A stretch of 64,000 nt of DNA, from NCBI GenBank assembly GCA_002256935.1, contig NCGL01000001.1:62001-126000 (forward strand), read 5' to 3'. This DNA comes from Bdellovibrio sp. 28-41-41 (GTDB lineage Bacteria; Bdellovibrionota; Bdellovibrionia; Bdellovibrionales; Bdellovibrionaceae). Shown here one piece after another: positions 28,227 through 57,193 of the stretch; the stretch's first letter is position 1; each line of letters opens with the position of its first letter. Under the pieces are notes generated by a model that worked only from the letters and a program-made list of their open reading frames with translations, searched no databases and was not told the origin of the DNA. The translations under genes were made by a program, and so were the position numbers.

Positions 28227-28820
28227 ATGTACGCAGTAATTAAAACTGGTGGAAAACAATACACCGTAAAACCTGGCGATGTAGTTCAAGTTGAAAAATT
28301 AGAACAAAACTTAGGAACTGAATTTGAGATAACTGAAGTTCTTGTTGTTGGCGGTGACACAACTGTTATTGGCCAGCCTCTTGTAAAAGGTGCCAAAGTA
28401 ACTGTAGTTGTGACTAAACAAGGTCGCGACAGAAAAGTGATCGTATTCAAAAAGAAACGTCGTCACTCTTTCAGAAAATTCAAAAATCACAAACAACCGT
28501 TCACAGAAATTTTTGTTAAATCAATCACTTCTGATGGCAAAACAGCAACTTCTGATTCTCAACCAGTTGTAACTGATATGGCCGCGGTAAGAGCACAAAG
28601 AATTCAAGATAAAGTTCAAGCACGTAGAGAACGTGTTGAAGCTAAAGTCGGCAGCAGCAAAGCGGTTTCTCATGAAGAAACAAAAACGTTAACTACTAAG
28701 AAGAAAGCTTCTAAGAAAGTAGCGAAAAAAGCAGCAGCAAAAAAAGTGTCTCCAAAGAAAGCCGCAGCTAAGAAATCAGCTAAAGCTAAAAAGACATCTA
28801 AAAAAGCAACTAAGAAGTAA
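28227..28820 (+). CDS. rplU: 50S ribosomal protein L21 with lysine-rich C-terminal extension
   Basis: Large-subunit ribosomal protein that binds 23S rRNA near L20. The first about 103 residues are normal L21 (MYAVIKTGGKQYTVKPGD at the start, RHSFRKFKNHKQPFTEI in the RNA-binding part). The protein then runs on to 197 residues. The extension has a Glu/Arg-rich helix-like part (about 115-145) and then a Lys/Ala/Ser/Thr-rich tail (about 150-197) resembling histone H1-like or AlgP tails. The frame is intact and has a good GGAGG site. L21 is usually about 103 residues, so nearly half of this protein is extra. Confidence 0.95.
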   Translation: MYAVIKTGGKQYTVKPGDVVQVEKLEQNLGTEFEITEVLVVGGDTTVIGQPLVKGAKVTVVVTKQGRDRKVIVFKKKRRHSFRKFKNHKQPFTEIFVKSITSDGKTATSDSQPVVTDMAAVRAQRIQDKVQARRERVEAKVGSSKAVSHEETKTLTTKKKASKKVAKKAAAKKVSPKKAAAKKSAKAKKTSKKATKK

Positions 28821-54263: not shown

Positions 54264-54902
54264 ATGATAAAAAACTTAGTAATCACCAGTCTTTTTGTAG
54301 GTCAGGCGCTATTGGCGGCGGAAGGTGACGTAAGCACAGTCATTAAATTAGCTAACACAGTTAAAAGTGTGGCTCAAACATCCGAAGCATCACAAGAAAA
54401 CATCGATGAAGCCGAAGTTAAACTACGTGAAGCTATTGAGTTATTAACATCAGGATCCTCATCTGGTGGCGGTAGTAGCCACTCTGGCAGCATTGATTTT
54501 GTAGCGTGCTATGATTTCTCTTATCAAAAGTATTATTCAGGGTTGTCTTCAACGGCTGCGGCCGATAAAGCATCGGCAGCTTGTAAAGGTGGCGTGGATT
54601 TAGAAATCACAAAATTCTTATTCGAAAAGTACTACAGTGGCTTGAGCGCTGTAAACGCAATGGATAAATCGGCTGCGGGTTCAGGAAAAAATCTGCGTGG
54701 GAAGTTAACATTAATCAAATTTATGTATGAAAAATACTATTCTGGAATGAGTTCTGTGAATGCGGCCGATAAAGCTGTTGAAGGCGCGGAAAAATTAAAG
54801 AAAAACAGCCTGGGTTGTTTAGAAAAACTATATCCTAACTACTACAGCTCTCAGAGTTCCGTTAATGCTATGAATAGCGCCGTTGCGGGTTGTGCAAAGT
54901 AA
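54264..54902 (+). CDS. Exported YYSG tandem-repeat protein
   Basis: Function unknown. The 212-residue protein has a signal peptide (about 1-19). A helical Glu/Ala region follows (about 22-62), then a Gly/Ser linker (about 63-76). Four imperfect repeats come next, built on KYYSGxSxxNAxDKAxxG. Their YYSG (last YYSS) cores lie at residues 90, 123, 158 and 193, spaced 33-35. Cysteines at 82, 107, 185 and 210 could brace the first and last repeats. The start has AAGGAG, and a 104 bp gap after mlaD suggests its own promoter. No known domain matched from memory. Confidence 0.72.
   Translation: MIKNLVITSLFVGQALLAAEGDVSTVIKLANTVKSVAQTSEASQENIDEAEVKLREAIELLTSGSSSGGGSSHSGSIDFVACYDFSYQKYYSGLSSTAAADKASAACKGGVDLEITKFLFEKYYSGLSAVNAMDKSAAGSGKNLRGKLTLIKFMYEKYYSGMSSVNAADKAVEGAEKLKKNSLGCLEKLYPNYYSSQSSVNAMNSAVAGCAK
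54507..54893 (+). repeat. Four-unit protein repeat in the YYSG gene
   Basis: Repeats of 33-35 codons encoding aromatic, Gly and Ser-rich units with the core YYSG and a following NA-DK motif. The DNA copies are diverged, so this is a protein-level repeat, not recent DNA slippage. Confidence 0.8.
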
Positions 54903-55113: not shown

Positions 55114-55725
55114 GTGAAGACATTAATTCTAATTTTCTCGCTGATTTTTACTCAAATATCTCAAGCTCAAGAAATTTCGACAGTAGAAATCACGCCGAAT
55201 AGATCATCGAAGACACAAAATGAGACATCGACACCGTCTTCGAACACATATAATTCGAATTGGGATATGCGTGATCACCGAAAATTAGGCGCCGGAATCG
55301 GATTAGCGGGAGTTTTTGGACAAATCGGCGGCGTTGCTGACATAAATTTTGACGCACAAAACGCGGCGCAGGTCGGATTTGGTAATGGATATGGGTTTAA
55401 TACGTTTTTCGCGGGCTGGAAAACGAGTTTCGAAAGTCAGTTTGTGTCTCCCTACATCACACTCGGATATTCTCGTTGGTACAATTCAGACAGTGTCGAT
55501 CTTCGTGGTAACTCATATATTTTGGATCAAGTTTTATCAAAAAAGGAATTAGCGAATGGAAAAATCGGAGTCGATTTTCTGCTGGCGAATTTAGGTGTTC
55601 AGTACAATCAATTAGACACTGAGTGGATTGGAAATTCGTTCTTTTTAGAATTTAATTTTCTTTACAGTACTAGTCGGGGAGCCTTGCTACCAGCGGCTTC
55701 TGTGGGATCGATCTATTACTTCTAG
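55114..55725 (+). CDS. Probable outer-membrane beta-barrel protein
   Basis: The 203-residue protein has a signal peptide (about 1-18, SQA cleavage). A Ser/Thr/Asn linker follows (about 25-48), then alternating amphipathic strands rich in Gly and aromatics (VSPYITLGYSRWYNS, NSFFLEFNFLYSTSRG). It ends in phenylalanine, as Omp barrels usually do. The start is a GTG with AAGGATC upstream. It is followed by a strong terminator. A small barrel of about eight strands is plausible; no specific family is recognised. Confidence 0.65.
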   Translation: MKTLILIFSLIFTQISQAQEISTVEITPNRSSKTQNETSTPSSNTYNSNWDMRDHRKLGAGIGLAGVFGQIGGVADINFDAQNAAQVGFGNGYGFNTFFAGWKTSFESQFVSPYITLGYSRWYNSDSVDLRGNSYILDQVLSKKELANGKIGVDFLLANLGVQYNQLDTEWIGNSFFLEFNFLYSTSRGALLPAASVGSIYYF

Positions 55726-55742
55726 ATCTATTTAGACCAAAA

Positions 55743-55769
55743 AAAACCCTCAGTTACCTGAGGGTTTTT
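55743..55769. terminator. Bidirectional terminator between the barrel gene and the lysine peptide gene
   Basis: Perfect 11-bp stem AAAACCCTCAG / CTGAGGGTTTT, loop TTAC, with A and T tracts on both sides. It serves the plus gene ending at 55725 and the minus peptide gene ending at 55790. Confidence 0.9.
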
Positions 55770-55789
55770 AGATTATTAGCCGGAGCTAA

Positions 55790-55864
55790 CTATCTTTTTT
55801 TAGAAGCTTTCTTTTTAGTAGCTTTTTTCTTAGTAGCTTTTTTTGCAGCTTTCTTCTTTGCCAT
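55790..55864 (-). CDS. 24-residue lysine-rich basic peptide
   Basis: A tiny open frame (ATG 55864, TAG 55790) coding MAKKK, then Lys/Ala/Thr repeats to KKASKKR: 13 Lys, 1 Arg, 6 Ala, 2 Thr and 1 Ser of 24 residues. A strong AGGAGGAGC site is placed correctly, a bidirectional terminator lies 20 bp downstream, and a leader with an inverted repeat lies upstream, so it looks like a complete gene. The composition resembles histone H1-type or AlgP tails and the C-terminal tail of L21 (28227) in this window. A nucleic-acid-binding role is plausible but unproven. Confidence 0.7.
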   Translation of the reverse strand: MAKKKAAKKATKKKATKKKASKKR

Positions 55865-55893
55865 GTGCTCCTCCTGGAGATTATTAAAATGAT

Positions 55894-55911
55894 GTAGTGT
55901 TAATTCACTAC
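55894..55911. repeat. Inverted repeat in the leader of the lysine peptide gene
   Basis: Perfect 6-bp arms GTAGTG / CACTAC around TTAATT, 29 bp upstream of the peptide's ATG. A second short palindrome, CTATACTTATAG, lies just beyond and overlaps likely -10 sequences (TATAGT on the minus strand). It may be an operator or a leader hairpin. Confidence 0.45.
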
Positions 55912-56003
55912 AAACTTAAAACTATACTTATAGTCTTCCCAATGCGACAAAGTTCGTCAACAAAAAAAAATCACTTGCACAGAAATTGATACGATTTTCT
56001 TTC

Positions 56004-56756
56004 ATGATGCTATCAATGGTTGTTTCATTTTCGATTTCGCTTCTCGGATTTTTAATTCTAAAGCATGAGATTCACGAATTCTTTTTTAATTTCGGTCTTA
56101 ACACTTCAATTTTCAATTTCATCATGTATTTTTTGGTGTCTGTTGTTTTAATTGTGACTCATTTTACATTCGAAACTCCGACCATCGTGTGGTCTTTCTA
56201 TTTTTTTCTGATCATCATCGCACGATTCTTGCCACACTTGGCACGAAGTTTATTTGAAACTGAAATTCAGAATGAAAGTCTAAACTTTTTAGACAAAATA
56301 ATTCTGGGAGTGTCTGCTGGGATCGCCTTAAGATCTTCCATGGACAAGTCACTTGAGGATATGACCGGTTGGCGACGTCGTCAGTTCCATGATTTGATTC
56401 GGACGGTGAATTTGGGGCAGAATGTTTCGAAAATCGTGTCGCCGACACTTAAAAATTTGGCGGAGGAGTTGTTATTTGTGCAATCATCACAAGTTAAAAC
56501 ACTCGAACAACTTCAAAAACTGCGCCGGAATATAAAATTGCGACTAGATTTGAGACATAGGTCGAGACAAGTGGCGCTAAATATGAATGTGCAAGCCGGA
56601 TTTTTGATTTTCGTTTTCTTCGGAGTCAGTTTTTTTTCGTATTCCAACTATGAGACAAAGTTATTTCTAAAATATCTCCTGCCGGCGACCATTTGGTTCA
56701 GTTTTGGCTGCCTAGGTTTGTTTTATTTGCAAAGGAATCACAAATGGAAGATCTAG
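56004..56756 (+). CDS. TadB-like (type II secretion F domain) membrane protein
   Basis: The 250-residue protein has hydrophobic helices at about 3-23, 38-75 and 203-245 and a cytoplasmic helical bundle between. The core pattern (FLDKIILGVSAGIALRSSMD, then VKTLEQLQKLRRNIK) fits the TadB/T2SF family that forms the pilus inner-membrane platform. The ATG at 56004 is chosen; a TTG at 55986 is in frame. Neither has a clear ribosome site. It is followed by a TadC-like gene with a 13 bp overlap. No tadA, tadZ or flp gene is adjacent. Confidence 0.55.
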   Translation: MMLSMVVSFSISLLGFLILKHEIHEFFFNFGLNTSIFNFIMYFLVSVVLIVTHFTFETPTIVWSFYFFLIIIARFLPHLARSLFETEIQNESLNFLDKIILGVSAGIALRSSMDKSLEDMTGWRRRQFHDLIRTVNLGQNVSKIVSPTLKNLAEELLFVQSSQVKTLEQLQKLRRNIKLRLDLRHRSRQVALNMNVQAGFLIFVFFGVSFFSYSNYETKLFLKYLLPATIWFSFGCLGLFYLQRNHKWKI

Positions 56757-57193
56757 CGCCGCCACTTGAGCTGTTGTTGCACGTGAAAAGTAGTATTGAA
56801 AAAGGAAAATCTATCCAAGATGGAATTAAACGCTATCTTACAGCACACAATGGCCACGCATTTGCTAATCATATGTTTGTTAAAGCCACACGCCAGTGGT
56901 TCATTTTAATCGAACGTCAGCTTCCTACACACGAACATGTAGTGGGTGTGAAATCTATTTATCGTCGACAAGTGCTACAGTTGCTGGAGAAAGGGATTAA
57001 GAAAGAGCCGATCTACAATCAGATTCTCATACTCGAACACGAGATTTATCAGGCGTGTGAACGCGAGATCCAAGAAAAGTTAATTAAACTTCCCTACTTA
57101 GTGATGATTCCCGTCCTATTTTTCCAGTTTCCCGCGCTCTTAACTGTAATTTTTGGGCCCCTTTTGCAAAATTTTATTGAAAGTTTAAGATGA
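56744..57193 (+). CDS. TadC-like T2SF membrane protein
   Basis: The 149-residue protein has a cytoplasmic helical domain (about 1-115) and one or two C-terminal helices (about 118-148). The ATG at 56744 has AAAGGAA upstream. Together with the previous gene it resembles a TadB-TadC pair, though both are shorter than classical members (usually near 300 residues). The pair could be a reduced platform for pilus-like assembly. Assignment rests on layout and weak pattern matching. Confidence 0.5.
   Translation: MEDLAPPLELLLHVKSSIEKGKSIQDGIKRYLTAHNGHAFANHMFVKATRQWFILIERQLPTHEHVVGVKSIYRRQVLQLLEKGIKKEPIYNQILILEHEIYQACEREIQEKLIKLPYLVMIPVLFFQFPALLTVIFGPLLQNFIESLR

Follow-up and report, generated by a model that had tools for sequence, protein, structure and literature searches.

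A lysine-rich micro-gene and its surroundings

A 24-codon open reading frame runs from ATG to TAG on the minus strand at positions 55790..55864 of the window, by which we mean the whole 64-kb stretch of DNA analysed, and encodes the peptide MAKKKAAKKATKKKATKKKASKKR. Lysine and arginine account for 14 of the 24 residues (58%), and the frame lies exactly where a preliminary description of this DNA had placed a complete micro-gene for a lysine-rich peptide with over half Lys or Arg. A frame of 24 residues is far below the reach of ordinary gene finders. The window contains 504 ATG frames of 18–60 codons, eight of which have a strong ribosome site; the micro-gene was the most basic of them all, and the second most basic frame with a ribosome site reached 32% Lys/Arg.

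The frame is flanked by expression signals, which were compared in relatives using a set of 61 orthologues that were extracted and aligned and that underlie the counts for the ribosome site, the terminator and the TTGACG element. The Shine-Dalgarno sequence is a perfect AGGAGG (55870..55875, minus strand) at ideal spacing from the start codon (AGGAGGAGCAC-ATG), and a ribosome site was present in 61 of 61 orthologues. Downstream is an intrinsic terminator with a 12-bp stem followed by a T run (AAAAACCCTCAGGTAACTGAGGGTTTTT, 55742..55769, minus strand). A strict terminator test was passed by 59 of 61 orthologues; the remaining two had a long-loop or a more distant terminator-like hairpin. The excellent ribosome site and strong terminator noticed earlier were thereby confirmed, as was a leader with inverted repeats, since the leader hairpin or inverted repeat TGTAGTGAATTAACACTACA was found at 55912-55893 (minus strand). 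Same-genus relatives kept an inverted repeat in the leader with different letters, and (CAA)n leaders replaced it in many other genera. Between the stop codon and the terminator lies a small hairpin, TTAGCTCCGGCTAA (TTAGC-TCCG-GCTAA; 55776..55789, minus strand). Relatives had hairpins of differing sequence at the same post-stop place, and the post-stop hairpin was weakly above shuffles (median p 0.07). The weak but recurrent hairpins in both untranslated regions look like mRNA stabilisers and may act as such. An Rfam search of the region gave sub-threshold chance matches only.

The micro-gene has a sigma70-like promoter, with no resemblance to those of FliA. It consists of a -35 element, TTGACG, with a T tract before it (55955..55960, minus strand), and a -10-like hexamer, AAGACT, 17 nt past TTGACG (55932..55937, minus strand). 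TTGACG was located 79–109 nt upstream of the ATG in 56 of 61 orthologues, and the -10-like hexamer was conserved in relatives as AAGACT, AACAAT or AACACT. Overlapping the -35 element is a GAC-N7-GTC inverted repeat (55946..55958, minus strand) that was kept in many relatives, with TC at the spacer position in 45 of 50 distinct promoters. This repeat is a candidate operator and possibly the binding site of some regulator. When the pattern TTGACG-N17-AASAMT was searched genome-wide in two genomes, the handful of matches was roughly equal to that of a reversed control, and thus the pattern was uninformative on any regulon.

The convergent neighbour codes for a predicted secreted or outer-membrane beta-barrel-like protein (55114..55725, plus strand), sits downstream of mlaD, and was syntenic in most relatives. 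The divergent neighbours, also syntenic, code for membrane proteins (55986..57193, plus strand) that we call TadB/TadC-like by resemblance. The micro-gene occupied the slot between the convergent outer-membrane-type gene and the divergent tadB-tadC in nearly all genomes of the family and in many others of the order, including members of further families, and in several genomes tadB-tadC was followed by the cysteine synthase gene, cysK. In one genome from another order of the class, the micro-gene was accompanied by tadB-like and tadC-like genes, assigned by position and resemblance, with cysK further on. Elsewhere in the window (54264..54902, plus strand) is a gene whose product looks secreted and contains several diverged repeats resembling 'KYYSGLSSxNAxDKA'.

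Conservation across genomes

Because the peptide is too short to give good E-values in a single-protein search, relatives were searched with DNA patterns, and reversed patterns served as controls and gave 0 matches. Searching relatives for MAKKKA-type frames with a ribosome site, as had been proposed in the preliminary description, yielded matches in 42 of 66 family genomes and 16 of 20 genera. The pattern is blind to the MAKKA form found in the Bdellovibrio genus, which contains B. bacteriovorus HD100. A DNA query was used there and recovered the full micro-gene at the syntenic place in 22 of 24 genomes. Both exceptions were drafts; in G021 the gene was cut by a contig end, and G019 gave paralogous Lys-rich matches only. 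Another two genera proved to have MAKKA forms when their loci were read. Overall, the micro-gene was recovered in nearly all of the 66 family genomes, every same-genus genome among them, and family genomes G041 and G043 gave no match. Five same-genus relatives had a peptide that was identical or 96% identical. The HD100 orthologue (genome G003) has 43 residues and is located at about 3,670,617-3,670,748 on the plus strand, and at this locus a further two genomes of the Bdellovibrio genus share with it an identical stretch of 332 nt.

The tadB and outer-membrane neighbours were often only 22–45% identical to the proteins of the window, and the micro-gene was still recognisable, so its frame outlasts the flanks. 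This is the opposite of a frame that is lost while its flanks are kept, the outcome that had been named as one that would speak against the gene. Since the same chromosomal spot is kept across nearly the whole Bdellovibrio order, the micro-gene is almost certainly real. It is a genuine gene of the order Bdellovibrionales, probably expressed from a transcript of its own.

Stand-alone frames of 20–29 residues with a ribosome site and a terminator were also found in other classes of the phylum, in unrelated contexts. In the class and phylum scans with a stop-anchored pattern, some of the matches were out-of-frame stops inside longer genes, and those tallies were therefore not taken as micro-gene counts. 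In public genomes, similar free frames of 20–30 residues occurred, among the matches listed, in Planctomycetota, Omnitrophota, Acidobacteria and others, where they were selected by the search pattern itself.

Selection on the peptide

Codon alignments from six genera gave pN/pS values of 0.066 (the source genus), 0.122, 0.123, 0.097, 0.103 and 0.142, and most changes fell at third positions; the pairwise counts share ancestry and are not independent, and the direction was identical in every genus. The codon evolution of the micro-gene is strongly protein-constrained, and with 61 aligned orthologues and a frame-consistent codon pattern its conservation is far above chance. Order-wide synteny and codon-level purifying selection bear out the earlier proposals of a complete micro-gene and of a family of small peptides. 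The present analysis establishes gene structure, conservation, synteny and selection on the protein as those of a protein-coding micro-gene, with purifying selection on the frame and a conserved promoter, ribosome site and terminator.

In the 61 copies the composition was 53% Lys, 25% Ala and 13% Thr. The length ranged from 23 to 55 residues in the aligned copies and from 21 to 116 residues at the syntenic locus elsewhere in the order. Changes in length were by whole codons, and the Lys-Ala-Thr composition was kept, a combination of Lys-rich repeats and whole-codon length variation that is also the mark of Hc2/H1-like proteins.

A possible histone-H1-like polycation

The product of the micro-gene would be a minimal, probably disordered Lys-Ala-Thr polycation. 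Many copies of the peptide would bind to nucleic acid through its phosphate backbone, in the nucleoid and/or as RNA, with no sequence specificity, and the bound peptide would neutralise charge and help to compact or organise the nucleic acid, most likely much as chlamydial Hc2 or the histone H1 C-terminal tail does. Expression of the micro-gene, abundance of the peptide and nucleic acid as its ligand are inferred here. In the micro-peptides charge and composition are kept and length is free by whole repeats, a pattern to be expected of a nonspecific electrostatic polyanion binder such as the C-terminal domain of histone H1 or chlamydial Hc2. Hc2 varies in the number of its Lys-rich repeats and binds both DNA and RNA (PMC2848022). 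A chromatin- or RNA-binding role is plausible from the composition and the repeat-length plasticity, and we give a nonspecific nucleic-acid binder resembling the H1/Hc2 tail about an even chance of being the right description. At physiological salt, however, a peptide of 24 residues may have too little affinity for DNA.

The micro-peptide shares with Hc2 (HctB) and other bacterial H1-like Lys/Ala-rich proteins the Lys-rich repeats of low complexity, the lack of a folded domain, the length changes by whole repeats and the very high positive charge. However, the known members are far longer, Hc2 having 165–237 aa (PMC2848022), and the micro-peptides match no curated model. There was no match in Pfam and one unrelated sub-threshold match in NCBIfam, with no histone-like model among them, and the longer syntenic homologues did not match a curated family either. 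By strict membership the micro-peptide therefore has no place in a curated H1-like family, and it may represent a new, minimal form of the histone-H1-like kind. In the literature searched, no paper contained the peptide strings. The Bdellovibrio histones Bd0055 and Bd3044 (HBb) are also small, occur in the same bacteria and are proposed nucleoid organisers (PMC10627809, PMC11318664), but they have a histone fold, which the micro-peptide cannot form.

The best-surviving alternative, which we nonetheless consider unlikely, is that the peptide associates with the ribosome or with RNA, as a free counterpart of the Lys-rich L21 tail or as an analogue of tiny basic ribosomal proteins, and acts on rRNA or ribosome assembly and not on DNA. 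Ribosomal protein L21 in the window (197 aa; 28227..28820, plus strand) matches the Pfam L21 domain with residues 1-100 and has beyond this conserved domain a C-terminal tail of roughly 95 residues that is rich in Lys, Ala, Thr and Ser. The earlier link between this tail and the micro-peptide held with regard to composition, but the similarity was limited to composition and common descent was unsupported. In the L21 tail, as in the Lys-rich N-terminal tails of SWIB-domain proteins of the order, amino-acid composition and repeat style are as in the micro-peptide, but there the polycation is a tail on a folded protein, whereas in the micro-gene it is the whole product. The bTHX protein of Thermus and similar tiny ribosomal proteins have about 25 residues and are very basic. 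They resemble the micro-peptide in size and basicity, and a sigma70-like promoter without FliA character, in a cassette that looks constitutive, would also suit a ribosomal function. However, a sequence relation was not found in the PDB, where phmmer gave 0 matches at E<=10 (a weak test with a 24-residue low-complexity query), and lengths between 21 and 116 residues at a single locus would be odd for a structural component of the ribosome that occupies a defined site. This H1/Hc2-like length plasticity is the reason why binding of nucleic acid is favoured over a ribosomal role and over the binding of polyphosphate.

Partnering of the polycation with polyphosphate or storage granules appears distinctly less probable still. 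The H1-like protein AlgP is reported to affect polyphosphate granules in Pseudomonas (PMC9239181), so Lys-rich H1-like proteins can act on such granules, and length plasticity fits nonspecific binding to any polyanion. Against this, the locus has no link to polyphosphate genes and the sequence contains nothing specific to such a role. It is also quite improbable that the RNA is the functional product, as a small or dual-function RNA with an incidental or secondary frame. The transcript would be short with a strong terminator, and hairpins recur in the leader and after the stop codon with different sequences, but those after the stop codon exceed shuffled sequences only weakly, and the codon evidence, with pN/pS of 0.07–0.14, a preponderance of third-position changes, lengths that vary by whole codons and an invariably present ribosome site, conflicts with an RNA-only role.

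Predators are numerous in the order, and a cationic peptide might be secreted to act on prey cells. This is very improbable, as the sequence has no signal peptide and no hydrophobic stretch, and similar frames occur, among the matches listed, in further phyla that include Planctomycetota and Omnitrophota. A lysine-codon-sensing attenuator leader, suggested by a peptide rich in one amino acid ahead of a terminator, is refuted by gene orientation, since the micro-gene converges with the gene that comes after it and diverges from the tad genes, a layout that holds order-wide and leaves no co-directional downstream gene.

Returning to the nucleic-acid-binding polycation, the HD100 locus is absent from the list by Karunker et al. 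of eight small RNAs specific to the attack phase (PMC3627812), and thus a role in attack-phase-specific compaction is not supported. The identity of the micro-gene with an HD100 attack-phase sRNA was rejected because the coordinates do not match. In the course of its life cycle B. bacteriovorus strongly remodels its chromosome, and according to a review further unidentified proteins may participate (PMC11318664). A tiny, conserved polycation that escapes gene callers is a concrete candidate for such remodelling, and the micro-gene lets one ask what minimal length of an H1-like tail is still kept by selection. Small proteins are under-represented in the published proteome (PMC12546842), and the micro-peptide would be hard to see by tryptic proteomics since over half of its residues are cleavage sites. 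A broader reading, tentative and on balance doubtful, is that stand-alone Lys-Ala-Thr peptides of 20–30 residues are widespread unannotated bacterial nucleic-acid condensers and the smallest chromatin-type proteins known. They would be near-universal and vertically inherited at one locus in Bdellovibrionales, with forms from 21 to >100 residues depending on lineage, and the frames in Planctomycetota, Omnitrophota and others would be analogous.

Additional observations

The SWIB-domain proteins with Lys-rich N-terminal tails in the repeat style of the micro-peptide were seen at L174:1595-2143 and L181:2178-2702, where the domain was confirmed by Pfam, and in L304, L306, L307 and L312, where it was assigned by resemblance. 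In HD100, a c-di-GMP-I riboswitch was found inside the published merRNA coordinates. APsRNA5 of HD100 (605,441-605,617, minus strand) is 5295-fold up in the attack phase (PMC3627812). It contains a 29-codon frame, MAKKHVVRKEYIWNREIRELALLTETGPP (L095:310-399; HD100 605,509-605,598, minus strand), preceded within a few bases by an AAAGGAG ribosome site, and the published sRNA may thus be the mRNA of a micro-protein. Finally, a separate gene in the Bdellovibrio genus (L006:1512-2141 and L007:1513-2094) codes for a charge-dipole protein of about 200 aa, with a Lys/Pro/Ala-rich N-terminal half and a very acidic, Asp/Glu-rich C-terminal half.
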